Of a DNA stretch of 64,000 nucleotides, positions 5,938 through 29,796 are shown in pieces (positions within the stretch are counted from its first letter, which is position 1; each line of letters opens with the position of its first letter). The position numbers and the translations under genes were made by a program. The stretch comes from Friedmanniella luteola (lineage in GTDB: Bacteria; Actinomycetota; Actinomycetes; Propionibacteriales; Propionibacteriaceae): positions 1,860,001 through 1,924,000 of the forward strand of contig NZ_LT629749.1 of the NCBI RefSeq assembly GCF_900105065.1. Direction: 5' to 3'. Below the pieces are notes generated by a model that was not told the origin of the DNA, made no database searches, and saw nothing but the letters and a program-made list of their open reading frames with translations.

Positions 5938-6843
5938 TCAGCCCACCAGGGCGGGCAGCACGCGCTGGGCCCAGGCGAAGGACAGGGCGTGCGACTCGTA
6001 CCGCGAGTCCACGCTGGGCACGTCGACCTCGATCATGTAGTCGCCGTCGTAGTCCGCCGGCAGCGCGGCCATCACGCCGTCGAGGTCGACCACCCCGAGC
6101 CCCGGCTCCGCCCACAGCCGCTGGGTGGAGCCGATGTCGCGGTAGCTGAGACCCTCCCGCGACGCCGGGTCCAGGTAGTCGGGGAAGACGTCCTTGAGGT
6201 GGATGCCGCCCACCCGGTCCGCGTACCGGCGGACCAGGGCGACGGGGTCGGCGCCGGCCCAGGCCAGGTGGCCGGTGTCGGGTCCGAACCCGATGACGTC
6301 GGGGCCGAGGGTGTCGAGCAGCTCGGTGACCTCCGCCTCGGTCTCGAACACCCCGCCGACGTGGCTGTGGTGCAGCGGACGCAGGCCCTGGCTCTGCAGC
6401 ACCTGGCAGACGATGCCCACGTTCTCGATCGCCAGCGCCAGCCGGTCCTTGTCGAAGTCGGCGCCGACGGCCGGCCGTTCCATCCGGGCCGGGACCGCCA
6501 TCGAGGAGACCATCGTGCGGTCGAGGCCGAGGGCGACCTGGTCGGCGGCGAACCGCTTCGCGCGCTCCATCTCGTCGGCGATGTCGATCGTCTCGTCGAA
6601 GGGCGAGCTGAACAGGCTGAGCGACGGCCGCAGGCCGTAGCCGGCGATCCAGCCGGCGTACTCCTCGGCCGTCATGCCCTCCGGGACGTCGGCCTTGACC
6701 GCGGTGAAGCCGATCTTCTGGAAGTCGGCGAAGGCGGTCTCGAAGACCTCCCGCGTCTTGCCGTCGCGCGCCCAGTAGGGGATGGGGTTGGCGGCCAGCT
6801 GCGGCTGGCGCCGTCCGCTGCCGGTGCTCGTCGTGTCGCTCAT
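5938..6843 (-). CDS. Sugar phosphate isomerase/epimerase family protein (xylose isomerase-like TIM barrel)
   Basis: A 301-residue AP_endonuc_2/xylose isomerase-like TIM barrel, similar in layout to IolE/IolI-type enzymes. Likely divalent-metal ligands are in GFGPDTGHLAWAG (Asp, His), GGIHLKDVFPDY (His) and the terminal DGDYMIEVDVPS (Glu); WARDGKTREV lies at the N-terminus. Such proteins isomerise, epimerise, dehydrate or, in 3-keto-glycoside systems, cleave sugars by enolisation. It follows the sister gene at 6873-7700 by 29 nt on the same strand, divergent from a LacI-type regulator, so the pair is probably co-transcribed under that regulator. The ATG at 6843 gives a normal family N-terminus. 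Confidence 0.8.
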   Translation of the reverse strand: MSDTTSTGSGRRQPQLAANPIPYWARDGKTREVFETAFADFQKIGFTAVKADVPEGMTAEEYAGWIAGYGLRPSLSLFSSPFDETIDIADEMERAKRFAADQVALGLDRTMVSSMAVPARMERPAVGADFDKDRLALAIENVGIVCQVLQSQGLRPLHHSHVGGVFETEAEVTELLDTLGPDVIGFGPDTGHLAWAGADPVALVRRYADRVGGIHLKDVFPDYLDPASREGLSYRDIGSTQRLWAEPGLGVVDLDGVMAALPADYDGDYMIEVDVPSVDSRYESHALSFAWAQRVLPALVG

Positions 6844-6872
6844 GGTGGGCCCTTCGGGTCGGGTGGCGTCGG

Positions 6873-7700
6873 TCAGGCGAACGGGATGTGCTCGGCGCGG
6901 AGGAGGTCGGTGAAGGCCCGCCACGCCTCGGTGAAGAGAGCGGGGCCGGAGAACCCGCCCAGCGCGTGGGTCTGGCTGAGGTGCGGCTCGAGGGAGAAGA
7001 AGCCGTCGAAGCCGTCGGCGTGCAGCGCCCGCATCGTCTCGGCGACCTCGCCGTCGCCCCGACCCGCCGGCACGACCTCGCCGCTGGCCAGCAGCGCGTC
7101 CTTGATCTGCACGTACGCCAGGTGCGGGCGCAGCTGCGCGTAGCCGTCGGTGAAGGGCCGGACCCCCACCTGCACGAAGTTGGCGGCGTCCCAGGCCAGC
7201 CGGAGGTAGGGGGACCCCACCGACTCGACGACGTCGAGGCAGCGTCGCGGGATGTCGCCGTAGATCTCCTTCTCGTTCTCGTGCAGCAGCACCACGTCGC
7301 CGTCCGCGGCCACCCGGGCCAGGGCGCTCATCCGGGTGAGCACCTCGTCCCGGACGCTGTCGGGGTCGACACCGGCGGGGACGAAGAAGGAGAAGATGCG
7401 GACGTACGGCGCCCCGAAGTGGTGGGCGACCTCGACGGCGTGCCGGGCCCGCTCCAGGTGCGGGCCGAAGTCGTCACCGATGCCGATCTTGCCGATCGGC
7501 GAGCCGATGCTGGAGACGGCCAGGTCGTGCTGGGTGAGCAGGGCGGACGCCCGGGCGAGCTGGTCGGCGTCGAGGTCGAGGACGTTGGTGCCCCAGGCGC
7601 TGCGGAGCTCCAGGTGGGTCAGCCCCAGCTCGGCGACGAGGGCGCACTGCTCGGCGAAGTCGGGGGAGATCTCGTCGGAGAATCCGGACAGGGTCCACAT
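6873..7700 (-). CDS. Sugar phosphate isomerase/epimerase family protein (xylose isomerase-like TIM barrel)
   Basis: A 275-residue TIM-barrel protein of the same superfamily as its downstream neighbour but clearly diverged from it. It begins with GFSDEISPDFAEQCALVAEL and shows metal-site positions in HENEKEIYGDIP (Glu), LRLAWDAANFVQVG (Asp), YVQIKDALLAS and GFFSLEPHLS (Glu). The HENEKEIYGD motif is characteristic of a subgroup often found beside Gfo/Idh oxidoreductases in sugar-utilisation loci. It is the first gene of the minus-strand unit; its start is 121 bp from the LacI gene, with the shared operator at 7770-7790 between them. Confidence 0.8.
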   Translation of the reverse strand: MWTLSGFSDEISPDFAEQCALVAELGLTHLELRSAWGTNVLDLDADQLARASALLTQHDLAVSSIGSPIGKIGIGDDFGPHLERARHAVEVAHHFGAPYVRIFSFFVPAGVDPDSVRDEVLTRMSALARVAADGDVVLLHENEKEIYGDIPRRCLDVVESVGSPYLRLAWDAANFVQVGVRPFTDGYAQLRPHLAYVQIKDALLASGEVVPAGRGDGEVAETMRALHADGFDGFFSLEPHLSQTHALGGFSGPALFTEAWRAFTDLLRAEHIPFA

Positions 7701-7821: not shown

Positions 7822-8859
7822 ATGGGCGACGGCGCGGGGGGCGGGGCGTCGCGAGAGCCGTCGAGACCGACCATCTACGACGTCGCCGAGGCCGCCGGGG
7901 TGGCCACCTCGACGGTGTCGCGGGCGCTGGCGCACCCCGGCCGGGTCAGCTTCGCCACCGCCGAGCGCATCCGGCAGGTGGCCGACCAGCTCGGCTACCG
8001 GGCCACCCGCATCTCCCGGGCGGCGACCCGGCGGACGTCGCTGCTGGCCGTCGTCGTCGCCGACATCACCAACCCGGTCTACTTCGGGATGATCCGCGGC
8101 GCCGAGCGGACCGCGGCGCACGCGGGCTACACCGCGGTGGTGGTCGAGACCCAGGAGTCCGAGACGACCGAGCGCGCCGCGCTGGCCCGCGTCCAGCCGC
8201 TGGTCGACGGCGTCGTGCTCACCTCCTCCCGGATGCCTGACGCGGCCATCCGGGAGGCGGCCAAGCAGGGCCCGCTGGTGGTGCTGAACCGGATGGTCGG
8301 CCAGGTGCCCTCGGTGACCAGCGACAACGTCCGGGCCGTCAAGCGCGCGACGGAGCACCTCGCGGGGACCGGCGTCGACTCGATCACCTACCTCCCCGGG
8401 CCGGAGGCGTCCTGGTCGGACGGGATGCGCTGGCGGGGGCTGCGGGAGGCGGGGCTGGAGCTGGGGATGAGGGTCCGCCGCGTCGGGTCGCAGGACCCGA
8501 CGATGCGGGGCGGGGCGGCGGCCGCCGAGGAGTGGCTGGCGCACCGGACGCCCGGCGTCATCGCCTACAACGACCTGCTGGCCATCGGCTTCATCCGCGC
8601 CGTGACCGCCGCCGGGGTGGTCGTGCCGGACGACGTCCGCGTGGTGGGCTTCGACAACATCGTCGACGCCGAGCTGGTGCAGCCCGGGCTGACGACGCTG
8701 GCCTCGCCGCTGGTCAGCCTCGGCTCCGCCGCGGTGAACCACCTGCTGAAGAGCACCGGTCGTCACCGCCCGGAGGAGCTGGAACCCATGCTGCTGCCGG
8801 CCCGGCTGGTGGTGCGGGGCTCCACCGGCCCGCACCCCGTCCGGCCCGTCGGCGGATGA
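7822..8859 (+). CDS. LacI-family transcriptional regulator (hexuronate locus)
   Basis: A 345-residue LacI/GalR regulator. The N-terminal helix-turn-helix is textbook (TIYDVAEAAGVATSTVSRAL, about residues 18-37, then the hinge around AERIRQVADQLGY), followed by the periplasmic-binding-like effector domain (LLAVVVADITNPVYFGMIRG to VVGFDNIVDAELVQPGLTTL). It is divergent from the two TIM-barrel genes. Repeats of one operator in front of this gene, uxaC and the Gfo/Idh operon make it the likely local repressor, with a sugar acid or a pathway intermediate as inducer. The start at 7822 follows a CAGGGT box by 6 nt, suggesting a leaderless mRNA. Confidence 0.85.
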   Translation: MGDGAGGGASREPSRPTIYDVAEAAGVATSTVSRALAHPGRVSFATAERIRQVADQLGYRATRISRAATRRTSLLAVVVADITNPVYFGMIRGAERTAAHAGYTAVVVETQESETTERAALARVQPLVDGVVLTSSRMPDAAIREAAKQGPLVVLNRMVGQVPSVTSDNVRAVKRATEHLAGTGVDSITYLPGPEASWSDGMRWRGLREAGLELGMRVRRVGSQDPTMRGGAAAAEEWLAHRTPGVIAYNDLLAIGFIRAVTAAGVVVPDDVRVVGFDNIVDAELVQPGLTTLASPLVSLGSAAVNHLLKSTGRHRPEELEPMLLPARLVVRGSTGPHPVRPVGG

Positions 8860-8941: not shown

Positions 8942-9856
8942 GTGACGTCGACGGAGGAGTTCGAGGCGGAGCGGCCGCGGCTGCGCCGGCTGGCCGCGCG
9001 GGTGCTGGGGGACCCGAGCGGGGCCGAGGACGTCGTCCAGCAGGCCTGGCTCCGCCTGCACGCGACGGACGAGCCGGTCGTCAACCTGCCGGCCTGGCTG
9101 ACCACCGTCACCACCCGGCTCTGCCTGGACCGGCTGCGCGCCCGGGTGCCCGCGCCCGTCGAGGCGGTGGAGGAGGCGGGCAGCGCGCCCGACCCGGCGG
9201 ACGAGGTCGCGCTCGCCGACACCGTCGGCGTCGCCCTGCAGGTGGTGCTGGAACGCCTCTCGCCGGCCGAGCGGGTGGCCTTCGTGCTGCACGACTCCTT
9301 CGGCTTCGAGTTCGCCACCATCGCGACCGCCCTCGACACCACCCCGGCGGCCGCCCGCAAGCTGGCCTCCCGCGCCCGCGCCAAGGTCCGGCAGCCGGCG
9401 GCGGAGGACCGGCTGGCCGCCTGGGAGGTCGTCGACGCCTTCATGGCCGCCGCCCGCGAGGGCGACTTCGACCGCCTGCTGGAGCTGCTCGCCCCGGACG
9501 CCGTGGTGACCGCGGACCTCGCCGCGGTGAGCGCGGGCACGCCGGGACGCCTCGAGGGCCGGCGGGAGATCGCCAGCTTCTTCAACGGCAGCGCCCAGTC
9601 CGCGATGGCGGTGTTCGCGGGCGACCGGCCCGCGGCCGCCTGGTACCACCGCGGCCGCCCGGCGGTGCTGTTCGACTTCGCCGTCGTCGACGGCGTGGTC
9701 GCCCACATCACCTTCCGCGCCGAGGCCGACGCGCTGGCCGCGGTGGAGCGGCGGGACGGCGCGTCCCGCCGGGCGCGCCCGGCCGTCGGTCACACCGCCT
9801 CCGTCCCGGACGTCGTCCCCGGTGAGGACGACCACCACGACCAGGAGGAGCAGTGA
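8942..9856 (+). CDS. ECF RNA polymerase sigma factor with SnoaL-like C-terminal domain (SigJ/ECF41-like)
   Basis: A 304-residue sigma factor. Sigma region 2 covers about residues 8-70 (GAEDVVQQAWLRL, LTTVTTRLCLDRLRAR), region 4 about residues 100-155 (LSPAERVAFVLHDSFGFEF, ATALDTTPAAARKLASRARAK), and a SnoaL/NTF2-like domain follows (VVDAFMAAAREGDFDRLLEL to GVVAHITFRAEADAL). ECF41-like factors use this C-terminal domain instead of a separate anti-sigma factor. GTG start with a GGAGGAGAGGAG ribosome site. The stop overlaps the DUF1059 start by 1 nt, so the two are translationally coupled. It lies between the LacI gene and uxaC without an obvious link to sugar metabolism. Confidence 0.85.
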   Translation: MTSTEEFEAERPRLRRLAARVLGDPSGAEDVVQQAWLRLHATDEPVVNLPAWLTTVTTRLCLDRLRARVPAPVEAVEEAGSAPDPADEVALADTVGVALQVVLERLSPAERVAFVLHDSFGFEFATIATALDTTPAAARKLASRARAKVRQPAAEDRLAAWEVVDAFMAAAREGDFDRLLELLAPDAVVTADLAAVSAGTPGRLEGRREIASFFNGSAQSAMAVFAGDRPAAAWYHRGRPAVLFDFAVVDGVVAHITFRAEADALAAVERRDGASRRARPAVGHTASVPDVVPGEDDHHDQEEQ

Positions 9857-10101: not shown

Positions 10102-10126
10102 GGCAACAACCGGCAACTTGTTGCCG
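10102..10126 (+). promoter_or_regulatory. Operator copy 2, upstream of uxaC
   Basis: GGCAACAAC (10102-10110) is followed by CGGCAACTTGTTGCCG (10111-10126), a 16-bp palindrome broken only at its two central bases. This is the most symmetric of the three copies. A possible uxaC -10 (GAGGAT, 10146-10151) lies 6 nt before the ATG, so the palindrome would overlap the -35 region and block initiation. Confidence 0.7.
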
Positions 10127-10157: not shown

Positions 10158-11579
10158 ATGCCTCCCGCCACCGCCGTCCTGCAGCTCCACCCCGACCGGC
10201 TGCTGCCCGCCGACCCGGAGGTGCGGGCGATCGCACGCCGCCTGCACGCGTCGGTGGCGGACCTGCCGGTGGTCTCCCCGCACGGGCACGTGCCGGCGGC
10301 CTGGCTCGCGGACGACACCCCGTTCGTCGACCCGACCTCGCTGCTGGTCACCCCCGACCACTACGTCAACCGGCTGCTGCACGCCCACGGCGTCGAGCTC
10401 TCGGCGCTGGGCGTCGGCCAGGGCCCGTTGGAGGAGGAGCAGTCGCGGGCGGCGTTCCGCACCGTCTGCGCGCACTGGGACGTCTTCCGGGGCACCCCGG
10501 TGCGGTACTGGTTCGAGTCGCAGCTCGCCGACATCTTCGGCGTCGAGGTGCGGCCGAGCGCCGCGACCGCGGACGCCGTCTACGACCAGGTCGCCGCCTG
10601 CCTGGTCCGGCCGGAGTTCCGGCCCCGCGCCCTCCACGACCGCTTCGGCATCACGGTGCTGGCCACCACCGACGACCCCTGCGACGACCTCGCCGCGCAC
10701 CGCCGGCTCACCGACGACCCGAGCTGGACCGGCCGGGTGGTCCCGACCTTCCGGCCCGACCGCTACCTGGAGGCGGCCGGCCCCACCTGGAACGCCGACC
10801 TCGACCGGCTGGCCGCCGTGTCCGGCGTCGACACCGGCGACTACGCCGGCTTCATCGAGGCGCTGGAGGACCGCCGTCGCCACTTCCGGGCGCACGGGGC
10901 CGTCTCCACCGACCACAGCCACCCCGACGTCCGCACCGACGTGCTGGAGCCGGCCGAGGCCGCCCGGCTGTTCACCCTCGGCCGCCGCGGTGAGATCACG
11001 GCCGAGGAGGCGACGGCCCTGCGCCGCCACCTGCTCGCGGAGATGGCCCGGATGTCGGTCGAGGACGGCCTGGTGATGACGCTGCACCCCGGCATCCGCC
11101 GCAACCACCACACCCCGACCTTCGAGCGCTACGGCGCCGACGTCGGTAGCGACATCCCGGTCGCCCTCGAGCTCACCGACGCCCTCCGGCCGCTGCTGAG
11201 CCGCTACGGCACCGCCGCGGGGTTCCACCTCGTGCTGTTCACCGTCGACGAGACGGTGTTCTCCCGCGAGATCGCCCCGCTGGCCGGGTTCTACCCGTCG
11301 GTCTTCGCGGGAGCGCCGTGGTGGTTCCTCGACGCCCCGGAGGCCATCCGCCGCTACCGTGGGGCGGTCACCGAGTCGGCCGGCTTCGCCAAGACGTCCG
11401 GCTTCATCGACGACACGCGCGCCTTCTGCTCCATCCCGGCCCGGCACGACATGTCCCGGCGGCTCGACGCCGGCTACCTGGCCGGTCTGGTCGCCGAGCA
11501 CCGGCTGGACGAGGACGAGGCGCTGGAGACGGCCCACGACCTGGTCGTCACGATCCCCGAGAGGACCTTCAAGCTGTGA
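10158..11579 (+). CDS. uxaC: Glucuronate isomerase
   Basis: A 473-residue UxaC (EC 5.3.1.12), normal length for the family. It converts D-glucuronate to D-fructuronate (and galacturonate to tagaturonate) in the cytoplasm. The metal-binding SPHGHVPAAWLADD is near residue 40, and the family signatures LATTDDPCDDLAAH, VPTFRPDRYL, DHSHPDVRTD, LHPGIRRNH and FTVDETVFSREIAPLAGFYP follow in order. It is first in an operon with uxuB and the FGGY kinase (4-nt overlaps at each junction), behind a LacI-type operator. No uronate transporter is nearby. Confidence 0.93.
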   Translation: MPPATAVLQLHPDRLLPADPEVRAIARRLHASVADLPVVSPHGHVPAAWLADDTPFVDPTSLLVTPDHYVNRLLHAHGVELSALGVGQGPLEEEQSRAAFRTVCAHWDVFRGTPVRYWFESQLADIFGVEVRPSAATADAVYDQVAACLVRPEFRPRALHDRFGITVLATTDDPCDDLAAHRRLTDDPSWTGRVVPTFRPDRYLEAAGPTWNADLDRLAAVSGVDTGDYAGFIEALEDRRRHFRAHGAVSTDHSHPDVRTDVLEPAEAARLFTLGRRGEITAEEATALRRHLLAEMARMSVEDGLVMTLHPGIRRNHHTPTFERYGADVGSDIPVALELTDALRPLLSRYGTAAGFHLVLFTVDETVFSREIAPLAGFYPSVFAGAPWWFLDAPEAIRRYRGAVTESAGFAKTSGFIDDTRAFCSIPARHDMSRRLDAGYLAGLVAEHRLDEDEALETAHDLVVTIPERTFKL

Positions 11580-12982
11580 GCAGCACCCCCGCGGCGACGT
11601 CGCCGCCCCGGCTGTCCCGTGCGCTGCCGGGCACCCCGCCGGCGCCGCCCGTCCGGCTGGTGCACCTCGGCCTCGGCAGCTTCCACCGCGCCCACCAGGC
11701 CTGGTACACCGCCGCCGCCCCCGACGCGGCGGAGTGGGGGATCGCCGCCTTCACCGGCCGGCGGCCGGGGGTCGCCGAGGCGCTGGCCCCGCAGGACGGG
11801 CTCTACACGCTGATCACCCGCAGCGCGGACGGCGACGCCTTCGAGGTCGTCGGCCAGGTGGCCGCCGTGCACGCGGCCGACGAGCACGAGGTCTACCTCG
11901 CCCACCTGGCCCGGCCCGAGGTCGCGGTCGTCACCATCACCGTCACCGAGCCCGGCTACCTGACCGGCCCCGACGGCCGGCTGGACGCCGGTCGGGAGGC
12001 GGTGGTCGCCGACACCGCCGCCCTGCGGGCCGACCCGCGGGCTCTGGTCACGTCGCTGCCCGCACGCCTGGTGGCCGGGCTGCTCGCGCGGCGCGCCGCG
12101 GCCGCCGGACCGGTCACCCTGCTCTCCTGCGACAACCTGCCCGAGAACGGCGAGGTCACCCGTGCCGTCGTCACCGACCTGGCCGCGCTCGTCGACCCGG
12201 CCCTGGTCGGCTGGCTGGACGCGCACGTCGACTTCGCCACCTCCATGGTCGACCGGATCACCCCCGCGACCACCGACGAGGACCGGGTCCTCGTGCGGCA
12301 GCACCAGGGCTACGTCGACGCCGAGCCGGTGCCCACGGAGCCGTTCAGCGAGTGGGTCGTGGCGGGCCGGTTCCCCGCCGGCCGGCCGCGCTGGGAGGAC
12401 GCCGGGGTGCGGGTCGTCGACGACGTCCGGCCCTTCGAGCAGCGCAAGCTCTGGCTGCTCAACGGGTCGCACTCCCTGCTGGCCTACGCCGGCAGCATCC
12501 GCGGGCACGCCACCATCGACGAGGCCGTCGCCGATCCCGCCTGCCGGGCCGAGGTGGAGGCCTTCTGGGACGAGGCCGGCCGGCACCTCGAGCTGGGCGG
12601 GGACGCCGTCACCGGCTACCGGACAGCGCTCCTCGAGCGGTTCGCGAACCCGCGGGTCCGCCACCGGCTGGCCCAGATCGCCGGCGACGGCTCCACGAAG
12701 CTGCGGGTCAGGACGCTGCCCCCGCTGCGCGCCGAGCGGGCGGCCGGCCGGCTGCCGGCCGGCTGCGCCAGCACCCTCGCCGCCTGGGTGCTGCACCTGC
12801 GCGGTCACGGCGCCCCCGTCAACGACCCCGGGGCCGACGCCGCCCGGGCGGCCGCGAGCGCGGGCGAGCTGGCCGCCGCCGTGCCCGCGGTGCTGGACTC
12901 CCTCGAGCCGGGGCTGGGCGCCGACACCGCGCTGGTCGCCCTCGTCCTCGAGCGCGCCACGCTGCTGGTGCCCGGCGCATGA
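11576..12982 (+). CDS. Fructuronate reductase / mannitol dehydrogenase family protein
   Basis: A 468-residue polyol/uronate dehydrogenase of the UxuB/MtlD family. The Rossmann start VRLVHLGLGSFHRAHQAWYT (about residues 23-42), the central ITVTEPGYL, LLSCDNLPENG and VDRITPAT, and the catalytic segment QRKLWLLNGSHSLLAYAG with the Lys and Asn/His residues are all present. In this context it most likely reduces D-fructuronate to D-mannonate with NADH (EC 1.1.1.57); mannitol or altronate dehydrogenase activity cannot be excluded from sequence. The GTG start lies inside the uxaC stop (GTGA), giving tight translational coupling. Confidence 0.88.
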   Translation: MSSTPAATSPPRLSRALPGTPPAPPVRLVHLGLGSFHRAHQAWYTAAAPDAAEWGIAAFTGRRPGVAEALAPQDGLYTLITRSADGDAFEVVGQVAAVHAADEHEVYLAHLARPEVAVVTITVTEPGYLTGPDGRLDAGREAVVADTAALRADPRALVTSLPARLVAGLLARRAAAAGPVTLLSCDNLPENGEVTRAVVTDLAALVDPALVGWLDAHVDFATSMVDRITPATTDEDRVLVRQHQGYVDAEPVPTEPFSEWVVAGRFPAGRPRWEDAGVRVVDDVRPFEQRKLWLLNGSHSLLAYAGSIRGHATIDEAVADPACRAEVEAFWDEAGRHLELGGDAVTGYRTALLERFANPRVRHRLAQIAGDGSTKLRVRTLPPLRAERAAGRLPAGCASTLAAWVLHLRGHGAPVNDPGADAARAAASAGELAAAVPAVLDSLEPGLGADTALVALVLERATLLVPGA

Positions 12983-14526
12983 CCGGCCCCGGCGAGGTCC
13001 TGCTCGGCCTCGACGTGGGCACGACCGCGGTGAAGGTGGCCGCCTTCTCCACCGCCGGCGGCGGGCAGGTGGCCGGCGCGCAGCGGGAGTACCCCCTGAC
13101 CCAGCCCCGCCCCGGCTGGCACGTGCAGGACCCGGCCACCGTGCTGGCCGCGGTCGACACGGCGCTCGCGGAGTGCGTGGCCGCGCTGGGCGCGACCCGG
13201 GTGGCCGGCCTGGCGGTGGCGTCGGCGCAGCACGGCCTGCTGGGCCTGGACGAGCGGCGCGAGCCGGTCACCCCGCTGGTCACCTGGGCCGACGCCCGCT
13301 CCACCGCCGAGGCGCGGGAGCTGCGGTCGGGTGGCCTCGCCGCGGACCTGCTGCGCCGCACCGGCACCCCGGTCCACCCGATGAGCCCGCTGGTCAAGCT
13401 GGTGTGGTTCGCCCGGCACGACCCGGAGACCGCGGCCGCGGTGCGCTGGTGGCTGGGCCTGAAGGACCTGCTCCTGCTGCACCTCACCGGTCAGCTGGTC
13501 ACGGAGCTGTCGAGCGCCTCCGCGACCGGGCTGCTGGGCAGCGTCGCGCGCGACTGGGACGCCGACGCGCTGGCCGTCGCCGGCATCCGGCGCGAGCAGC
13601 TGCCACCGGTGCTGCCCACCACCACCGTGCTGGAGCTGACCGCCGACGCCGCCCGCCGCTCGGGGCTGCCCGCCGGGCTGCCGGTGGTCGTCGGCGCCGC
13701 GGACGGCCCGCTGGGCAACCTCGGCACCGGAGCCATCGAGCCGGGCGTGGCCGGGCTGTCGCTGGGCACCAGCGGGGCGGTCCGGATGGCCGTCGACGGC
13801 CCGCGCGCCGACCCGCGCGGCTCGCTGTTCTGCTACGCGCTCACCGACGACCTCTGGGTGGTCGGCGGCGCGGTCAGCAACGGCGGCATCGCCATGCGCT
13901 GGGCCGGCGCGACCTTCGCCGCCGAGCTGACGGGGAAGGGGCTGACGGGGGAGGAGCACGCCGACAGCCAGCTGCTGGCCCTGGCCGCCGAGGCGCCACC
14001 GGGCAGCGACGGGCTGGTCATGCTGCCCTACCTGCTGAGCGAGCGAGCGCCCGTGTGGGACCCCGAGCTGGCCGGGGCCTACTTCGGCATCCGGCACCGG
14101 CACACCCGCCAGCACTTCCTGCGCGCGGCCCTGGAGGGCGTCTGCCTGCAGGTCAGCACCATCGCCGACGCCCTCGAGCAGGTGGGGCCGGTGCGGGAGG
14201 TGCGGGCGACCGGCGGGACCTTCCGCTCACCGCTGTGGCGGACGGTGATGGCCGGGGTGCTGGCGCGGCCGCTGGTCGTGGAGGCCGGCGCCGGCGGCAC
14301 GGCGCTGGGGGCCACGGCGCTCGGCTGGTACGCCCTCGGCGGCGCGGCCGACCTGCCGTCGGCGCTGGTCGCCCTCCGGGGTCCGGTGGCCGACCCGACC
14401 CCGGTCGCGGTGACCCGGGACGACCTGGACACCTACGCACGGCTGCGGGCCGGCTTCCCCGCCCTGGTGCGGTCCTACACCGCGGTGGCCGACGCGTTCG
14501 AGGTCCCGGCCGCTGCCCGGGCCTGA
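12979..14526 (+). CDS. FGGY-family carbohydrate kinase, gluconokinase-like
   Basis: A 515-residue sugar kinase with both FGGY actin-like domains: phosphate-1 loop LLGLDVGTTAVKVAAF at residues 8-23, catalytic-Asp region VVGAADGPLGNLGTG, adenosine region GVAGLSLGTSGAVRM, and late GTFRSPLWRTVMAGVL. The segment MLPYLLSERAPVWDPELAGA is typical of gluconokinases and not of xylulokinases or glycerol kinases. It should phosphorylate an open-chain sugar acid, most plausibly gluconate to 6-phosphogluconate. It overlaps the upstream dehydrogenase by 4 nt (ATGA) and ends just before the third operator. A 2-keto-3-deoxygluconate kinase role is less likely, since those are usually PfkB-type. Confidence 0.8.
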   Translation: MTGPGEVLLGLDVGTTAVKVAAFSTAGGGQVAGAQREYPLTQPRPGWHVQDPATVLAAVDTALAECVAALGATRVAGLAVASAQHGLLGLDERREPVTPLVTWADARSTAEARELRSGGLAADLLRRTGTPVHPMSPLVKLVWFARHDPETAAAVRWWLGLKDLLLLHLTGQLVTELSSASATGLLGSVARDWDADALAVAGIRREQLPPVLPTTTVLELTADAARRSGLPAGLPVVVGAADGPLGNLGTGAIEPGVAGLSLGTSGAVRMAVDGPRADPRGSLFCYALTDDLWVVGGAVSNGGIAMRWAGATFAAELTGKGLTGEEHADSQLLALAAEAPPGSDGLVMLPYLLSERAPVWDPELAGAYFGIRHRHTRQHFLRAALEGVCLQVSTIADALEQVGPVREVRATGGTFRSPLWRTVMAGVLARPLVVEAGAGGTALGATALGWYALGGAADLPSALVALRGPVADPTPVAVTRDDLDTYARLRAGFPALVRSYTAVADAFEVPAAARA

Positions 14527-14527
14527 C

Positions 14528-14552
14528 GGCAACTTCCGGCAACTTGTTGGCC
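14528..14552 (+). promoter_or_regulatory. Operator copy 3, upstream of the Gfo/Idh-LarA operon
   Basis: CGGCAACTT occurs twice in tandem (14527-14535 and 14537-14545), the second continuing as CGGCAACTTGTTGGCC. Aligned with copies 1 and 2 it shares the central CGGCAAC and the left GCAAC half. It lies in the 120-bp gap between the kinase stop and the first oxidoreductase gene, so this downstream unit has its own regulated promoter. Confidence 0.7.
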
Positions 14553-14646
14553 GGCGACGGGCCAGCGACGACGGTGGTGGGCGGGCCGGTCGCGGCCCCG
14601 GTCCCCGGCTCCGGGGGCTGCGCGCAGCGAGGACGAGGAGACGTCG

Positions 14647-15813
14647 ATGACGGACAAGGTGAGGCTGGGCATCGTGGGCCTGGGCGCCCAGGGGTCGATG
14701 TACGGTCGCCTGATCGCCGACGGCCGGGTGCCCAACATCGAGATCGGCGCCCTCTGCGACAGCGACCCGGCGGCCCTCGCGGCCGCGCAGGAGCGCCACC
14801 CCGGCGTCCCGGCCCACCCCGACTACGCCGGCGTGCTGAGCAGCGGGGACGTGGACGCCGTCGTCACCTGCGTCCCGCACTTCCTGCACCCCGAGATGGG
14901 CATCGCGGCACTCGAGGCCGGCGTGCACGCCCTCGTCGAGAAGCCGGCCGGCGTCTACACCCGCCAGGTCGCCGAGCTCAACGCCGTCGCCGACAAGCAC
15001 CCCGAGCTCACCTTCGCGATCATGTTCAACCAGCGCAACAACCCGCTGTACCAGGCGATCAAGAAGATCGTGGACAGCGGCGAGCTGGGCGCGATCCGGC
15101 ACACCAGCTGGATCATCACCACCTGGTGGCGGCCGCAGGGCTACTACGACCAGAGCGCCTGGCGGGCCACCTGGGGCGGCGAGGGCGGCGGTGTGCTGGT
15201 CAACCAGGCCCCGCACCAGCTGGACCTGTGGCAGTGGATCTGCGGTCGCCCGCAGTCGGTCTACGCCAAGCTCGGCTTCGGCTTCCGCCGCGACATCGCC
15301 GTCGAGGACGAGGTCAGCGTGATGGTCGACTACGGCGGCGGCGCGACGGGCGTGCTGGTCACCGCGACGCACGACCTCGCCGGCACCGACCGGTTCGAGA
15401 TCCTGGGCGACAACGGCAAGATCGTGGTCGACGGCAGCAAGCGGGCCACCGTCACCCGGCTCAGCAAGCCCGAGCGCGAGATCAGCGACTCGATCGACGC
15501 CGCCGGCGCGAAGCTGCTGTTCAGCGGCGGCCTCAAGACCGACCAGTACCTCAGCACCGAGGTGCTCGAGTTCGAGTCCGTCTGGGGCGGTCAGCACGCC
15601 GGGGTGCTGGAGAACTTCGCGGCCAACATCCTGGACGGCACCCCGCTGATCGCCCCCGGCGCGGACGGCATCCACGGCGTCCGGCTGGCCAACGCCATCC
15701 ACCTCTCCGGCTGGACCGGCCAGGAGATCCCGCTGGACCTCGACGAGGACCTCTACCTGAGCGAGCTCAACGCCCGGATCCGCGCCGAGGGCAGCTTCCC
15801 CGAGCGTTCCTGA
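14647..15813 (+). CDS. Gfo/Idh/MocA-family oxidoreductase
   Basis: A 388-residue NAD(P)-dependent sugar dehydrogenase. The Rossmann motif RLGIVGLGAQGSMYG is at residues 6-20, the EKP catalytic lysine is in HALVEKPAGVYTRQV (about residue 99), and the second-domain signature GEGGGVLVNQAPHQLDLWQW carries the catalytic His/Asp pair. Members oxidise or reduce hydroxyls of sugars, inositols and glycosides, including C3 oxidation of intact glycosides. The ATG has GAGGAG 6 nt upstream. It leads an operon with a second Gfo/Idh gene and larA, under operator copy 3. Confidence 0.9.
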   Translation: MTDKVRLGIVGLGAQGSMYGRLIADGRVPNIEIGALCDSDPAALAAAQERHPGVPAHPDYAGVLSSGDVDAVVTCVPHFLHPEMGIAALEAGVHALVEKPAGVYTRQVAELNAVADKHPELTFAIMFNQRNNPLYQAIKKIVDSGELGAIRHTSWIITTWWRPQGYYDQSAWRATWGGEGGGVLVNQAPHQLDLWQWICGRPQSVYAKLGFGFRRDIAVEDEVSVMVDYGGGATGVLVTATHDLAGTDRFEILGDNGKIVVDGSKRATVTRLSKPEREISDSIDAAGAKLLFSGGLKTDQYLSTEVLEFESVWGGQHAGVLENFAANILDGTPLIAPGADGIHGVRLANAIHLSGWTGQEIPLDLDEDLYLSELNARIRAEGSFPERS

Positions 15814-15860
15814 CGCCCGCCGCCCCGCCGCCCACCCCTCAGCCCCCACCAGGAGCCCGC

Positions 15861-16868
15861 ATGCCCACCGCAGCCGTGATCGGGTGCGGCGACGTCTCCG
15901 TCGTCCACCTCGACGCCCTCGCCTCCCTGCCCGACGTCGAGCTGGTCGGGGTGGTCGAGCCGGACCGCGACCGCCGGGAGGCGGCCGCGCAGAAGTACGG
16001 CGTGCCCGGCTTCCCCGACCAGGCCGCGCTGCTGGCGCAGGCGCGACCAGACGTCGTGCACGTCACCACCCCGCACCACACCCACGTCGAGCTCGCCCTG
16101 GCCTGCCTGGAGCAGGGCGTGCACGTGGTGCTGGAGAAGCCCCTCGCGTCGACGGTCGCCGACGGTGAGCGACTGGCCGCCGCCGCCGACGCGGGCTCGG
16201 CGAAGATCGCCGTCTGCTTCCAGAACCGCTACAACGCGGCGGTCCGGGGGCTGCACGAGCGGCTCACCTCCGGCGAGCTGGGCACCGTCCTCGGCGCGGC
16301 CGCGACCGTCGTCTGGCACCGGGAGGCGAGCTACTACGAGAACCGGCCCTGGCGCTCCACCTGGGCGGGCAGCGGCGGCGGGCTGCTGATGAACCAGGCC
16401 ATCCACACGGTCGACCTGGTGCAGTGGCTGGTGGGCGACGTCACCGGCGTCGAGGGCCACGCCAGCACCCGGGCGCTCGCCGGCGCGATCGAGGTCGAGG
16501 ACACCGCCGAGATCGCCCTGCAGCACGCGTCCGGGGCGCGCAGCGTCTTCTACGCGACCCTCGCGCACGCCGCGAACGCCCCCGTGACCCTCGACGTGGT
16601 CACCGAGCAGGCCACGCTGAGCCTGCGCGGCGACCTCACCATCACCCACGCCGACGGCCGCAGCGAGACGGTGCGGGAGCGGACGGCCGCCACGGGCGGC
16701 CGCTCCTACTGGGGCGTGTCGCACGAGCTGCTGCTCGCCGACTTCTACGCCCGGCTGGGCGATCCTGAGCCGTTCTGGATCAGCCCGCGGGAGGCGCTCA
16801 AGTCGCTGCGGATCGTCAAGGACGTCTACCGGCAGAGCTACCCCGGGCTGGGCGACGCCGTTGCCTGA
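15861..16868 (+). CDS. Gfo/Idh/MocA-family oxidoreductase
   Basis: A 335-residue paralogue of the preceding gene, shorter and clearly diverged. The nucleotide-binding start is AAVIGCGDVSVVHLDAL, the EKP lysine lies in HVVLEKPLASTVADG (about residue 95), and the active-site segment is GGLLMNQAIHTVDLVQWLVG. The substrate is unknown; with two such enzymes and two TIM-barrel proteins in one regulon, an oxidise-rearrange-reduce sequence on a sugar or glycoside is plausible. An AGGAG box precedes the ATG, and the gene ends inside the larA start region (8-nt overlap). Confidence 0.88.
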   Translation: MPTAAVIGCGDVSVVHLDALASLPDVELVGVVEPDRDRREAAAQKYGVPGFPDQAALLAQARPDVVHVTTPHHTHVELALACLEQGVHVVLEKPLASTVADGERLAAAADAGSAKIAVCFQNRYNAAVRGLHERLTSGELGTVLGAAATVVWHREASYYENRPWRSTWAGSGGGLLMNQAIHTVDLVQWLVGDVTGVEGHASTRALAGAIEVEDTAEIALQHASGARSVFYATLAHAANAPVTLDVVTEQATLSLRGDLTITHADGRSETVRERTAATGGRSYWGVSHELLLADFYARLGDPEPFWISPREALKSLRIVKDVYRQSYPGLGDAVA

Positions 16869-18222
16869 GCACGCCTACGGGACCGAGCCCGGGGACCCGG
16901 CCCGGGCGCTGCAGGTCGGAGGTCCGGGGGTCCGGCTGAGCGAGCAGCAGGTGACGGCGTTCGTCGCCGACGCCTTCGCGGGCGCCGACGTCGACGGCGC
17001 CTCGGTCTGCCTCGTCGTCCCCGACGGCACCCGCACCTGCCCGCTGCCCCTGCTGCTCGGCACCGTCCGCGACGCGCTCGCGGGCCGGGCCCGCGAGGTC
17101 ACCGTCGTCGTCGCCCTCGGCACCCACCAGGCGATGAGCGAGGAGCACCTCGCCCGGCACCTCGGCTTCGCGCCGGGGGACAGCGGCGCCACCTACCCGG
17201 GCTGGCGGATCCTCAACCACGCCTCCGGGCTCCCCGAGACGTTCACCGACCTGGGGACGATCGGACCCGGGCGGATGGCCGAGCTCACCGGCGGGCTGAT
17301 GACCGACCTGTCCGTCGACGTCCGGATCAACCGGCACGTGGCCGAGGCCGACGTCGCCGTCGTCGTCGGACCCGTCTTCCCGCACGAGGTGGTCGGCTTC
17401 TCCGGTGGCAACAAGTACTTCTTCCCCGGCGTGTCCGGCCAGGAGCTGATCGACCTGTCGCACTGGGTCGGCGCCCTGATCACCAGCGCCGAGATGATCG
17501 GCACCCGCGGCGTCACGCCGGTCCGGGCCCTGGTCAACGAGGCGGCGGGCATGATCCCGGCGCGCCGGCTGGCGCTCTGCCTGGTCGTCGCGTCGGGGAC
17601 CGACACGCTGCACGCGGCCGCCTTCGGCACCCCCGAGGACGCCTGGGCCGCCTGCGCGGCGGTGTCGGCGGAGACCCACGTGTCCTACCGCGACGCCCCG
17701 GTCCGGCGGGTGCTGTCGGTGATGCCGGCGAAGTACGAGGACATCTGGACCGCGGCCAAGGGGTTCTACAAGCTGGAGCCGATCGTGGCCGACGGCGGCG
17801 AGGTGATCATCTACGCCCCCCACATCACCGAGGTGTCGGTGATGCACCCGCACATCACCGAGATCGGCTACCACAACCGGGACTACTTCCTGGGGCAGTG
17901 GGAGCGGTTCCGGGACACCCCGTGGGGCGACCTCGCCCACTCCACCCACCTGCGCGGCCAGGGCACCTGGGACCCCGAGCACGGGGAGCGGAACCGGGTC
18001 ACCGTCACCCTGGCCACCGGCATCCCCGAGGACGTCGTCCGGGCCGTCAACCTGAACTACCTCGACCCGGCGGACGTGGACGTCGACGCCTACGCCGCCG
18101 ACCCGGACACCTTCGTCGAGCCACACGCGGGCGAGGTGCTCTACCGGCTGCGCCCGGGCGGAGCGGGTGGCGCGGGGGAGCCCGACGGTCGGCAGACCCC
18201 CGCGGCGGGGCTCGACGGCTGA
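16861..18222 (+). CDS. LarA-family nickel-dependent racemase/epimerase (lactate racemase homologue)
   Basis: A 453-residue LarA superfamily protein (DUF2088). The N-terminal domain carries CLVVPDGTRTCP and VVVALGTHQAMSEEHL, and the conserved VVGPVFPHEVVGFSGGNKY plus FFPGVSG supplies the His and Lys positions that in LarA contact the nickel-pincer nucleotide. LarA proteins move a hydride at the C2 hydroxyl of 2-hydroxy acids; the superfamily extends beyond lactate to sugar acids. Beside uxaC, a fructuronate reductase and a gluconokinase-like kinase, mannonate/gluconate C2 epimerisation is an attractive role. The cofactor genes larB, larC and larE are not in the window. The TTG start overlaps the previous gene by 8 nt and lacks a clear ribosome site, so it is uncertain; GTG 16951 is the next in-frame alternative considered. 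Confidence 0.8.
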   Translation: MPEHAYGTEPGDPARALQVGGPGVRLSEQQVTAFVADAFAGADVDGASVCLVVPDGTRTCPLPLLLGTVRDALAGRAREVTVVVALGTHQAMSEEHLARHLGFAPGDSGATYPGWRILNHASGLPETFTDLGTIGPGRMAELTGGLMTDLSVDVRINRHVAEADVAVVVGPVFPHEVVGFSGGNKYFFPGVSGQELIDLSHWVGALITSAEMIGTRGVTPVRALVNEAAGMIPARRLALCLVVASGTDTLHAAAFGTPEDAWAACAAVSAETHVSYRDAPVRRVLSVMPAKYEDIWTAAKGFYKLEPIVADGGEVIIYAPHITEVSVMHPHITEIGYHNRDYFLGQWERFRDTPWGDLAHSTHLRGQGTWDPEHGERNRVTVTLATGIPEDVVRAVNLNYLDPADVDVDAYAADPDTFVEPHAGEVLYRLRPGGAGGAGEPDGRQTPAAGLDG

Positions 18223-24539: not shown

Positions 24540-25379
24540 TCAGCGCAGGCCGTGCTCGTTGAAGTAGCGCACGCTCGCCTCGATGCCGTCGAAGATGTGC
24601 CCGCCGGCGTAGTGGTCGAACTCGATCACGCCGAACTCCGTCCTCGGGGCGGCCGCGAGGTAGTCGAGCAGCGGCAGCTCGCCCTCGCCGGCCGGGCGCT
24701 GGTCCAGCTTCTCCGGGTCCATCCGGGCGGCACCGGGCTCGAACGGGTTGGCGCCCACGACGCCGTCCTTGAGGTGGAGGGCGCGGACCCGCTCGCCGAC
24801 GCGGCCCAGCAGCGCCGTGACGTCCTGGCGGCCGGTGGCGGCCCAGTAGAGGTCCACCTCCAGCACGACGTCGTCGCGCAGCTGCTCGGCGAAGAACTCG
24901 TACGCGGTGAGGCCCCGGAAGGTGGACAGGAACTCCTGGGCGTGGTTGTGGTAGCCGACGCGGAGGCCGTGGTCGGCCGCCTTCTCGGCGGCGTCGTTGA
25001 GCCGCTTGGCGTTGTCGAGCACCGCCTCCTCGGTCAGCCAGCGTTCGGTCTCGACGAACGGGTCGATGACGATCTCGAGCCCGACGGTCCTGGCAGCCTC
25101 GAAGACGGCCTGCTGGGTGGGCGGGCCGGACCTGGCCCCCTCCTTGAACGCCGGGTCGTCCAGTCCGAGGCCCTCCGACATCAGCGAGGCGTGGCCGGTG
25201 CGGGCGCGCAGCCCGGCCTTCTTGAAGGCCTCGTCGAGCGCCGGGGCCTTGTCGACGAAGTCGAACGCCTCGACCTCGCGCAGGCCCATCCCGGCCAGGC
25301 GGGCCAGGGTCCCGTCGAGGTCGGTGGCGAGCTGGTCGCGGACGGCGTAGAGCTGGACGGAGAGCACGGGGCTGGTCAA
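24540..25379 (-). CDS. Sugar phosphate isomerase/epimerase family protein (xylose isomerase-like TIM barrel)
   Basis: A 279-residue TIM-barrel protein (LSVQLYAVRDQLATDLDGTL at the start; metal-site segments RVGYHNHAQEFLSTFRG, VVLEVDLYWAATG, RALHLKDGVVG and FGVIEFDHYAGG). The YHNHxxEF motif is typical of the subgroup found with Gfo/Idh dehydrogenases, some of which act on 3-keto-glycosides or inositols. The start is a TTG with AGGAAGG about 8 nt upstream; GTG 25367 is an alternative. It is last in the minus-strand operon, 56 nt after the second TIM-barrel gene. Confidence 0.8.
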   Translation of the reverse strand: MTSPVLSVQLYAVRDQLATDLDGTLARLAGMGLREVEAFDFVDKAPALDEAFKKAGLRARTGHASLMSEGLGLDDPAFKEGARSGPPTQQAVFEAARTVGLEIVIDPFVETERWLTEEAVLDNAKRLNDAAEKAADHGLRVGYHNHAQEFLSTFRGLTAYEFFAEQLRDDVVLEVDLYWAATGRQDVTALLGRVGERVRALHLKDGVVGANPFEPGAARMDPEKLDQRPAGEGELPLLDYLAAAPRTEFGVIEFDHYAGGHIFDGIEASVRYFNEHGLR

Positions 25380-25435
25380 CGTCAGGTCCTTCCTCGGTGA
25401 AGTGTGGTCGTGGTCACCCTAGCGACGTGGCGCGC

Positions 25436-26323
25436 TCAGGCGGCGGCCGACCCCGGCCGCTCCAGGGCGGGCAGGACCAGCGCGGCGAACCGCTCCTGCA
25501 TGGTGGCCAGCACCTGGACGGCCGGCGCGGCCCAGATCTCGGCGTTGAAGATCTCCACCTCGACGGGGCCGTCGTAGCCGGCCGCCGCGACGAGCCGGCT
25601 CACGGCCGCGAAGTCGACCACGCCGTCGCCCATCATGCCGCGCGACAGCAGGGCGTCGGCGGCGATCGGCAGGTTGAAGTCGCACACCTGGTAGGCGGCG
25701 ATCCGCTGCTCGCGGCCGGCGCGCGCGACCTGCTCGGCCAGCTGCGGGTCCCAGAAGACGTGGAACGTGTCGACGCAGACGCCGACTGCGGCGGACGGGT
25801 ACGGGGCGGCCAGGTCCAGGGCCTGGCCGAGCGTGGAGAGCACCGCACGGTCGGCGACGTACATCGGGTGCAGCGGTTCCAGCGCCAGCCGGACCCCGTG
25901 CTCGCGGGCGAACGGGACGAGGTCCGCGAGCCGGTCGGCCACCCGGGTGCGGGCGGCGGCCAGGTCGGTGTCGCCCGGCGGCAGCCCGCCGACCACGAGC
26001 ACGAGCTCGGTGGTGCCCAGCGCCGCGGCCTGGCGGATGGCGGTGCGGTTGTCCTCGAGCGCGTGCGCCCTACCGGCCGGGTCCGCCGCGGTCAGGAAGC
26101 CGCCCCGGCACAGCGTCGAGACCTGCAGCCCGGAGGCGCGGACCAGCGCGACGGCCGCCTCCAGCCCGACCTCCTCGACGCGGTCGCGCCACAGGCCGAC
26201 GTGCCGGAGCCCGGCGTCCTGTGCCGCCCGCAGGGCCTCGGCCAGGGTGAGGGCCTTGGTGGTGGCGGTGTTGAGGGAGAGCCGGTCCATCCCCGGGGCC
26301 TGCGGGGTGGCCACCTCAGGCAC
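25436..26323 (-). CDS. Sugar phosphate isomerase/epimerase family protein (xylose isomerase-like TIM barrel)
   Basis: A 295-residue TIM-barrel protein. Segments with likely metal ligands are RLALEPLHPMYVADRAVLST (Glu, His), GVCVDTFHVFWDP (Asp, His), YQVCDFNLP and DGPVEVEIFNAEIWAAP (Glu). The EPLHPM and DTFHVFWDP motifs mark a subgroup that usually accompanies DUF993 and Gfo/Idh genes, as here. The GTG start overlaps the DUF993 stop by 8 nt, so the genes are coupled. Substrate unknown. Confidence 0.82.
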   Translation of the reverse strand: MPEVATPQAPGMDRLSLNTATTKALTLAEALRAAQDAGLRHVGLWRDRVEEVGLEAAVALVRASGLQVSTLCRGGFLTAADPAGRAHALEDNRTAIRQAAALGTTELVLVVGGLPPGDTDLAAARTRVADRLADLVPFAREHGVRLALEPLHPMYVADRAVLSTLGQALDLAAPYPSAAVGVCVDTFHVFWDPQLAEQVARAGREQRIAAYQVCDFNLPIAADALLSRGMMGDGVVDFAAVSRLVAAAGYDGPVEVEIFNAEIWAAPAVQVLATMQERFAALVLPALERPGSAAA

Positions 26324-28770: not shown

Positions 28771-29796
28771 GTGCCTGCGGTACGACTGACCGACGTCGCG
28801 GTGCGCGCCGGCGTCTCCCTGGCCACGGCGTCCCGGGTGCTCAACGGCTCTCTCCGCAGCCCGGCCGAGGCGATCGCCGTCCGCGTCCGGGCGGCCGCCG
28901 ACGAGCTCGGCTACGTCGCCAACGCGCAGGCCCAGGCGCTGGCCCGCTCGTCCACCGGGCTGGTGGGCGTCGTCGTCCACGACATCAGCGACCCCTACTT
29001 CTCGAGCATCGTCCGCGGCGCCCAGCACGCCGCGCGGGAGCGGCGCAGCCAGGTCCTGCTGGCCAGCACCGACCGCCACGAGCAGAGCGAGGTCGACGCG
29101 GTCAAGGCCTTCGCGACCTACCGCACCGACGCGATCATCCTGGCCGGCTCCCGGGGCGCGCACTCGGACCAGGCCCTCACCCGCGAGCTGGTGCGCTACA
29201 CCGCCAACGGCGGCCGCCTGGTCACCTTCGGGCACACCGGGTTCGCCGGGGCCCGCGTCGTCGAGGTGGCGAACGAGGACGGGGCGGCCCGCTTGGTGAC
29301 CGCCCTCGTGGCGCGGGGCCGGCGTCGCTTCGCCGTCCTGGGCGGACCGGAGGAGCTGGTCACCACCCAGCACCGGGTCGCCGGGTTCCGCCGGGCCCTG
29401 GCCGCCGCGGGGCTGGAGCCCCTGCTCGTGGTCCGCGGTGAGTTCACCAGCGAGGGCGGCCGCAGCGCGGCCGAGGCCTGCCTCGAGGCGGCCGGCCCGG
29501 GGACCGAGGGCTCCGACCAGCCGCTCTGCCTGCTGGCGGTCAACGACGTGATGGCCCTGGGGGCGCTCGCCGCCGTCCGGGCCCGCGGCCTGCGGGTCCC
29601 CGCCGACGTCGAGGTGGCGGGGTTCGACGACATCCCGACCCTGCGCGACTTCGACCCGCCGATGACCACGTTCCGGCTGCCGCTGGAGGAGATGGGTCGC
29701 CGGGCGGCCGAGCTGGCCCTGGCCGCCGACGACCCCGGCGCCGCGCACATCGAGGGCGAGGTCGTCCTCCGGCTGAGCGCCGGCGCCGAGCGCTGA
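28771..29796 (+). CDS. LacI-family transcriptional regulator (second sugar operon)
   Basis: A 341-residue LacI/GalR regulator: helix-turn-helix [20 protein letters not shown] at residues 4-23, hinge region [20 protein letters not shown], and a sugar-binding-like domain ([20 protein letters not shown] to [20 protein letters not shown]). GTG start. It is divergent from the Gfo/Idh-DUF993-TIM-TIM operon and is its obvious repressor through the GAAAGCGCTTTC site. It differs clearly in sequence from the regulator at 7.8 kb, so the two sugar loci answer to different inducers. Confidence 0.88.

Follow-up and report, generated by a model that had tools for sequence, protein, structure and literature searches.

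A putative glucuronide and glucuronate catabolic regulon with a GntE-like LarA homologue in Friedmanniella luteola

Introduction

How might a bacterium use glucuronate when the gene cluster that opens its degradation holds no mannonate dehydratase? This question is raised by a locus of the soil actinobacterium Friedmanniella luteola (Propionibacteriaceae) which encodes a glucuronate isomerase (UxaC), a reductase of the UxuB family, a kinase of the FGGY family and a homologue of LarA. The locus lies in a stretch of 64,000 nucleotides, hereafter the window (C1:1860001-1924000, C1 being the only contig, NZ_LT629749.1, of a genome of 4,717,514 bases rated 100% complete); positions without the prefix C1 or a locus number refer to the window. 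A first-pass annotation, made from the letters of the window, had proposed that the LarA homologue acts as a C2 epimerase in a route from glucuronate to 6-phosphogluconate that avoids 2-keto-3-deoxygluconate (KDG). We followed up this proposal with profile searches, comparisons with solved structures and a survey of related loci. With a probability of about 0.78, we read the locus as a glucuronide and glucuronate catabolic regulon whose products would convert glucuronate successively to fructuronate, mannonate, gluconate and 6-phosphogluconate. This route is supported by the closeness of the LarA homologue to the epimerase GntE2, by its conserved active site, by a palindrome ahead of both gene units of the locus, and by the recurrence of UxaC, UxuB, kinase, gnd and larBCE near related larA genes.

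Results

The LarA homologue is closest to GntE2

The product of larA scored 82.6 bits against Pfam Lar_N (cut-off 23.3). Compared with solved chains by phmmer, it matched the proven gluconate 2-epimerase GntE2 of Thermotoga (4nar) with 191.6 bits, while the runner-up, a lactate racemase, reached 33.5 bits. A Foldseek search with its predicted model (predicted local distance difference test, pLDDT, 88.5) likewise ranked 4nar first (TMt 0.89, E 5.7e-40; 31% identity in the structural match) and a lactate racemase next (TMt 0.75). On the profile scores and on this preference for 4nar in both sequence and fold, we rejected an assignment as lactate or malate racemase.

The residues named for LarA catalysis and cofactor binding in PMC7583248 were located in the alignments. 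The positions for catalysis and for binding of the nickel-pincer nucleotide (NPN), D55, R58, H89, H175, K185, H201 and K300, are identical in 18 of 18 aligned LarA sequences; H89, H175-E176-V177, K185, H201 and A299-K300 were positioned by the alignment with 4nar, and D55 and R58 by that with lactate racemase. Since a lactate-racemase-type paralogue has the same catalytic and cofactor residues, these indicate the superfamily and not the substrate. The stretch H175-E176-V177, also invariant across the 18 sequences, corresponds to H154-E155-S156 of GntE2, and glutamate followed by valine is the usual loop pair after the catalytic histidine of GntE proteins (PMC11770544). E176-V177 match the first half of the GntE signature E, V, A, H (positions F175, F176, W358 and T359 of LarA1); the invariant A359-H360 match the second half only if they are equivalent to W358-T359 of LarA1, which the alignments leave unfixed. 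The genome also contains larB, larC and larE, each over its curated cut-off and adjacent to one another (L020:4916-7766), unlinked to larA. A second LarA homologue (L005:9840-11198; C1:3.05 Mb) is lactate-racemase-like (NF033504, 320.6 bits; cut-off 460).

Partner enzymes and proposed route

The gene families named by the first-pass annotation, namely UxaC, the fructuronate reductase family, the LarA superfamily and a gluconokinase-like FGGY kinase, were all confirmed by profile matches and, for LarA and the kinase, by sequence matches to solved structures as well (Table 1). Both domains of the mannitol dehydrogenase family were found in the uxuB-family gene product, which scored similarly on the models for arabinitol dehydrogenase (253 bits; cut-off 600) and fructuronate reductase (248 bits; cut-off 603). 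The FGGY kinase scored higher on the gluconokinase model TIGR01314 (cut-off 648.55) than on the xylulokinase model (282 bits; cut-off 380.25), and its best solved match, gluconate kinase 3gbt, was followed by an unassigned FGGY kinase (199 bits) and a xylulokinase (176 bits).

The genes form two tandem units, uxaC-uxuB-FGGY kinase and, after a gap of 120 bases, gfoA-gfoB-larA. Within each unit they overlap or are at most 50 bases apart; the GTG start of the uxuB-family gene overlaps the stop of uxaC, and the TTG start of larA overlaps the 3' end of gfoB. Each is a putative transcription unit. In the route that we propose, UxaC would isomerise glucuronate to fructuronate, the UxuB-type reductase would form D-mannonate, the NPN-dependent LarA homologue would epimerise D-mannonate at C2 to D-gluconate, and the FGGY kinase would phosphorylate the latter to 6-phosphogluconate, which would enter the pentose phosphate pathway through the product of an unlinked gnd (C1:3867068).

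Table 1. Features of the locus (window positions; the palindromes are given without strand)
Feature	Position	Strand	Evidence
uxaC, glucuronate isomerase	10158..11579	+	NF002794 529.7 bits (curated cut-off 387)
uxuB-family reductase, putatively fructuronate to mannonate	11576..12982	+	PF01232 129 bits; PF08125 113 bits
FGGY gluconokinase-like kinase	12979..14526	+	TIGR01314 361 bits; 3gbt 278 bits
gfoA, glucuronide-3-dehydrogenase-like Gfo/Idh oxidoreductase	14647..15813	+	PDB 8tdi 469 bits, E 1.3e-139
gfoB, Gfo/Idh oxidoreductase, candidate 3-keto-glucuronate reductase	15861..16868	+	GFO_IDH_MocA 93.7 bits
larA homologue, predicted D-mannonate/D-gluconate 2-epimerase (GntE)	16861..18222	+	4nar E 2.1e-55; Foldseek best match 4nar
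TIM1, IolE-like xylose-isomerase-like TIM barrel, candidate eliminase/hydratase	5938..6924 (start uncertain, perhaps 6843)	-	PF01261 58 bits
TIM2, xylose-isomerase-like TIM barrel, candidate eliminase/hydratase	6873..7700	-	PF01261 87.5 bits
LacI-family regulator, presumed palindrome-binding	7822..8859 (start chosen by eye)	+	Pfam LacI and Peripla_BP domains
Palindrome CGGCAACTTGTTGCCG upstream of uxaC	10111..10126		pattern scans
Second palindrome copy upstream of gfoA	14537..14552		differs at 2 of 16 bases, 1 of the 14 inner bases

Partner genes recur near related larA genes

This LarA was found at E 1e-20 in 82 of 198 Propionibacteriaceae genomes; 73 of these matches were strong and the 9 weak ones were dropped. 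One neighbourhood was taken from each of 60 of the 82 matching genomes, and many of these are cut by contig ends. To them we added 66 loci whose titles place them outside the family or give no more than a higher rank (Kribbella, Streptomyces, Geodermatophilus, Cellulomonas, Actinoplanes and others), which makes 126 loci. Of 80 named loci, 14 had been excluded, 13 as probable repeats of family contigs and one (L114) as coming from the same assembly as L113. Score thresholds for tblastn were chosen manually, and for some genes the count over 126 loci used lower ones than the earlier count over 60; this is why UxuB was first recorded in 33 of the 60 and then in 34, and why L095 has both kinase types. 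A phylum-wide sample of 396 genomes, of which 6 (our own included) matched at E 1e-60, added few distant LarAs.

UxaC was present in 74 of the 126 loci, UxuB in 73 and both in 68, and in 56 loci UxaC and LarA are encoded divergently within 400 bp. The other neighbours were gnd (36 loci), at least one of larB, larC and larE (45), a kinase of the FGGY or PfkB type (36), glycoside hydrolase family 2 (GH2; 24) and the mannonate dehydratase ManD (1). Taken separately, the 60 family neighbourhoods contained UxaC in 38 and gnd in 29 cases, and the 66 further loci UxaC in 36, UxaC together with UxuB in 34, at least one of larB, larC and larE in 31 and GH2 in 17. For genomes of 3 to 8 Mb, a simple calculation puts the chance that a particular gene lies within a stretch of 20 kb below 1%. 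With clustering of the LarA sequences at 85% identity, 54 of 85 clusters had UxaC in at least one member; the count is thus not produced by near-identical genomes.

The two kinase types alternate (FGGY in 22 and PfkB in 15 of the 126 loci, one having both), and a gluconokinase of the PfkB type seems to take over from the FGGY kinase in some relatives. We know of no description of such an enzyme. PfkB kinases stand in the place of FGGY in L064, L065, L066, L091, L094, L096 and others, their best model being a KDPG (2-keto-3-deoxy-6-phosphogluconate) aldolase/sugar kinase fusion, below cut-off; in 7 loci PfkB lies beside gnd on the same strand, which makes it a candidate gluconokinase. Proteins with a GH3 domain (11 loci) or with weak resemblance to HAD proteins (8 loci) also recur near larA, in L063-L066, L079, L082, L091 and others.

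A palindrome precedes both units

The palindrome GGCAACTTGTTGCC ends 32 bases 5' of uxaC, and a one-base variant ends approximately 95 bases 5' of gfoA. With the central dinucleotide left open (n) and S at the position where the copies differ, the pattern GGCAACnnGTTGSC occurs at exactly two places in the 4.7-Mb genome, both in the locus, while the reversed control pattern has no occurrence. The genes for the isomerase, reductase, epimerase and kinase all belong to units preceded by this palindrome, the exact pattern being found nowhere else in the genome. The 126 related LarA loci contain 17 exact GGCAACnnGTTGCC sites, of which 15 lie near a core gene or at most 350 bases upstream of one, and the best of 89 permuted control palindromes has 2 core-gene-upstream sites in the same loci; by the core-gene test, 111 of the 126 loci have no exact site. 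Relatives of the LacI-family regulator encoded upstream of uxaC were detected in 68 of the 126. Both units are probably controlled by one LacI-type repressor through the GGCAACnnGTTGCC operator.

Stretches around the second LarA homologue and around two KDPG-aldolase-family genes elsewhere in the genome contain no palindrome with up to two mismatches. A dehydratase and kinase set under the same regulator, which the first-pass annotation had singled out as an observation that would speak against its route, was not encountered as far as tested: the genome does encode a ManD and a KDG-kinase-like protein (see below), and 18 kb around the ManD gene hold no 14-base palindrome with up to two mismatches. 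Between the LacI gene and uxaC, positions 8942-9856 encode an ECF-type (extracytoplasmic function) sigma factor with a SnoaL-like domain.

Two Gfo/Idh oxidoreductases point to glucuronides as a probable source of glucuronate

The text of the first-pass annotation had left out the two Gfo/Idh genes between the kinase gene and larA, and these alter the view of what enters the pathway. GfoA matches 8tdi (P2B11), a glucuronide-3-dehydrogenase by its PDB entry name alone, far ahead of the next best solved match (134.5 bits), while GfoB scored 146 bits on 3q2i and 112 bits on 8tdi. Upstream of the uxaC unit, together with the LacI regulator, two xylose-isomerase-like TIM barrels are encoded on the minus strand: TIM1 (TIGR04379, 92.8 bits, cut-off 290; IolE structure 3cny, 47.7 bits), with a relative in 2 of the 126 LarA loci, and TIM2 (model pLDDT 92), with relatives in 9. 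GfoA occurs in 9 of the 126 loci, 8 of which also have GfoB; at least one of TIM2 and TIM23 likewise accompanies GfoA in 8 of the 9.

In Agrobacterium, an operon encodes a glycoside 3-dehydrogenase, another oxidoreductase and two proteins of the sugar-phosphate isomerase/epimerase type; among its products, one TIM barrel is an eliminase, another protein is a hydratase according to preliminary evidence, and a Gfo protein reduces 3-keto-glucose (PMC10628242). By analogy, the Gfo and TIM-barrel set of the window probably cleaves glucuronides oxidatively, upstream of UxaC. GfoA would oxidise C3 of the glucuronide, the TIM barrels would eliminate the aglycone and rehydrate the product, and GfoB would reduce the 3-keto group to yield glucuronate; with gfoA and gfoB in one apparent operon with larA, this module would supply the substrate of UxaC. 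A candidate second sugar-oxidation cluster of the window, at positions 24540-28675, comprises two further xylose-isomerase-like TIM barrels and a Gfo/Idh gene, close to an open reading frame at 28771 that is LacI-like by eye.

These genes bear on the identity of the acid consumed. The locus might instead process another acid, such as galacturonate (via tagaturonate and altronate) or a hexarate, in which case LarA would epimerise the product formed from it: UxaC-type isomerases also accept galacturonate (PMC6353982), the uxuB-family reductase is left unassigned by curated models, and uronic or aldaric acids were suggested for GntE1 by the authors who described it (PMC7583248). We regard this as highly improbable given the match of GfoA to 8tdi, the recurrence of GH2, of which the two examples scanned (both from family loci) scored 852 and 890 bits on the beta-glucuronidase model (cut-off 544), and the GPH-family symporters that recur near LarA, one symporter scoring 488 bits with the model for glucuronide transporters (cut-off 528).

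Order of epimerisation and phosphorylation

A number of observations weigh against the route from glucuronate through free mannonate and gluconate. Both the FGGY kinase and the uxuB-family reductase score under the NCBI curated cut-offs, and LarA reaches 134 bits on NF052594, the model of the putative hexonate epimerases of LarAH group 18 (cut-off 500; the LarA of one relative, 178 bits), for which reason we term it GntE-like and do not assign it to group 18. Fold searches with TIM2 return a common fold that singles out neither eliminase nor hydratase. Among the 126 LarA loci, 35, some of them short contigs, have none of UxaC, UxuB, FGGY, PfkB, gnd and GH2 nearby. In F. luteola itself gnd and larEBC are unlinked to the locus, and the stretches around them (8 kb for gnd) contain no palindrome with up to two mismatches. 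Gene context sometimes failed to predict activity among GntE proteins, and mannonate was doubted as the native substrate of a GntE with a Michaelis constant (KM) of 120 mM by the authors themselves (PMC7583248); the KM values of typical GntEs for mannonate are 9.4, 17 and 120 mM (PMC7583248, PMC11770544).

Such weak binding of free mannonate would fit a reversed order of the last two steps, in which D-mannonate is phosphorylated and LarA, acting as 6-phosphomannonate 2-epimerase, gives 6-phosphogluconate directly. Extracts of Lactobacillus suebicus converted mannonate and ATP to 6-phosphomannonate and some 6-phosphogluconate, and formed no gluconate from mannonate alone, the genes being unidentified (PMC6978723). 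GntE2, the closest solved relative of LarA, nevertheless acts on free mannonate (PMC7583248), and the FGGY kinase most resembles gluconate kinases; the gnd-PfkB-larA arrangements give no sign of the kinase substrate. We therefore consider phosphorylation before epimerisation unlikely, and prefer epimerisation of free mannonate followed by phosphorylation of gluconate.

Other exits from mannonate

The first-pass annotation had seen no mannonate dehydratase, KDG kinase or KDPG aldolase at the locus, which is correct there but does not extend to the genome. Whereas PF03786 (UxuA) had no match in the whole genome, a ManD mannonate dehydratase (690 bits; cut-off 550) is encoded at C1:4574910, approximately 2.7 Mb from the locus by coordinate, adjoining a KDG-kinase-like PfkB gene (129 bits; cut-off 400), and the two KDPG-aldolase-family genes are found elsewhere. 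Absence of the KDG branch from the genome was hence rejected. The ManD region (L021:5965-10418; C1:4.57 Mb) also holds a gene that by eye resembles one for a zinc-type dehydrogenase and, encoded on the opposite strand, a gene similar to that of 6-phosphogluconate dehydrogenase; we take the region to be a separate sugar-acid cluster, perhaps for L-gulonate. The sole locus of the 126 with LarA near ManD (L115) has in addition an RspB-like dehydrogenase and KDPG-aldolase-like genes.

The remaining adverse points concern this branch. The organism's own ManD and KDG-kinase-like protein could use mannonate, and across the family the presence of LarA does not exclude dehydratases: ManD was found in 29 of 73 genomes with LarA and in 19 of 125 without it (Fisher p 0.00015), while UxuA showed no significant association (14 of 73 with and 34 of 125 without LarA, p 0.23). 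As LarA and ManD co-occur above expectation, LarA is not a simple substitute for mannonate dehydratases across the family, and this idea was rejected.

The same data raise the possibility that most mannonate is consumed by the unlinked set of ManD, PfkB and KDPG aldolases, and that LarA feeds gluconate into this branch (gluconate to mannonate to KDG) or serves as an overflow. The epimerase reaction of the LarA family is reversible, and the components are present and, for LarA and ManD, associated. On the other hand, 39 of the 73 LarA-bearing family genomes have neither ManD nor UxuA over cut-off, a count that includes incomplete genomes and leaves room for other dehydratase families. Four of the 39 (G072, G129, G168 and G171) consist of a single contig, are rated between 99 and 100% complete and encode UxaC and UxuB next to larA. 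The ManD locus does not share the palindrome, ManD adjoins LarA in only 1 of the 126 loci, and gnd and gluconokinase-like genes are what recurs there. We judge a main flow through ManD quite unlikely, and consider that at this locus carbon would run from mannonate to gluconate.

Discussion

Our analysis favours the LarA-type C2-epimerase route put forward in the first-pass annotation, through sequence, residues, palindrome and neighbourhoods, and does not support an organism-wide lack of a KDG branch. The idea of the route is not new either, since it was proposed for Thermotoga maritima in 2012 and GntE activity was demonstrated in 2020 (PMC7583248). The epimerase step itself has precedents in other bacteria; the apparent novelty lies in the full gene set sharing a single control signal. 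We found no published account of the combined system, that is of the regulatory tie, the oxidative glucuronide module and the PfkB alternative, in literature searches that left subscription papers mostly outside, and the available sections of two reviews (PMC12076931, PMC6353982) do not contain the mannonate-to-gluconate step.

A broader interpretation, which we put forward tentatively and at somewhat less than even odds, is that several actinobacterial lineages possess a self-contained system leading from glucuronides to the pentose phosphate pathway, in which C3 oxidation and elimination take the place of hydrolysis, a nickel-pincer epimerase that of a dehydratase, and one operator governs the whole. 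If true, it would connect the chemistry of the nickel pincer with the oxidative cleavage of glucuronides. The proposed route offers a role that can be tested for a recurrent actinobacterial LarA clade which falls below every curated NCBI cut-off, and would extend the GntE shortcut to bacteria of which more than half of the LarA-bearing family genomes show neither UxuA nor ManD over cut-off. Such a shortcut would send carbon to the pentose phosphate pathway with no split to pyruvate and glyceraldehyde phosphate.

Among known systems, the canonical glucuronate pathway of the UxuA type differs from the locus in its dehydratase: UxuA is without a match in this genome, and ManD lies elsewhere. A close precedent is the GntE bypass of T. 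maritima (gnd, uxaRED, gntEK; GntE2 is 4nar); according to PMC6978723, PMC3750489 and PMC7583248, Rodionova et al. (2012) proposed a mannonate-to-gluconate route for this organism. In both cases mannonate would reach 6-phosphogluconate and gnd through GntE and a gluconate kinase, and T. maritima, too, keeps a KDG branch (kdgAK-uxuBA) in its genome (PMC3750489). Its genes, however, form a pectin and galacturonate regulon under the GntR-type UxaR, whereas here UxaC and UxuB occur with a presumed LacI regulator, gnd is unlinked, a Gfo/TIM-barrel glucuronide module is attached, and the FGGY kinase misses the curated gluconokinase cut-off (361 against 648.55 bits).

The isomerase-phosphoketolase hybrid pathway of L. 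suebicus similarly leads from mannonate to 6-phosphogluconate and bypasses KDG, but there phosphorylation precedes epimerisation, with genes that are unidentified (PMC6978723). GntE1 of Corynebacterium glutamicum, assayed in 2020, belongs to an actinobacterial GntE group with uronate gene context (PMC7583248). It represents LarAH group 19, and with the hypothesised hexonate epimerases of group 18 it shares the E-V/S loop pair common to groups 18 to 20, as does the LarA described here; in contrast to those groups, partner genes, operator and glucuronide module are now spelled out, and the score on the group 18 model stays low. Finally, the upstream module resembles the oxidative (3-keto) glycoside cleavage represented by the AtOGE/AtHYD operon of Agrobacterium and by the structure 8tdi, with a pair of oxidoreductases and a pair of xylose-isomerase-like TIM barrels. 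For F. luteola, the assignment of eliminase and hydratase functions is a guess, while GfoA is clearly of the 8tdi kind, and its match points to a glucuronide in place of a glucoside, in a module joined here to the UxaC/GntE route.

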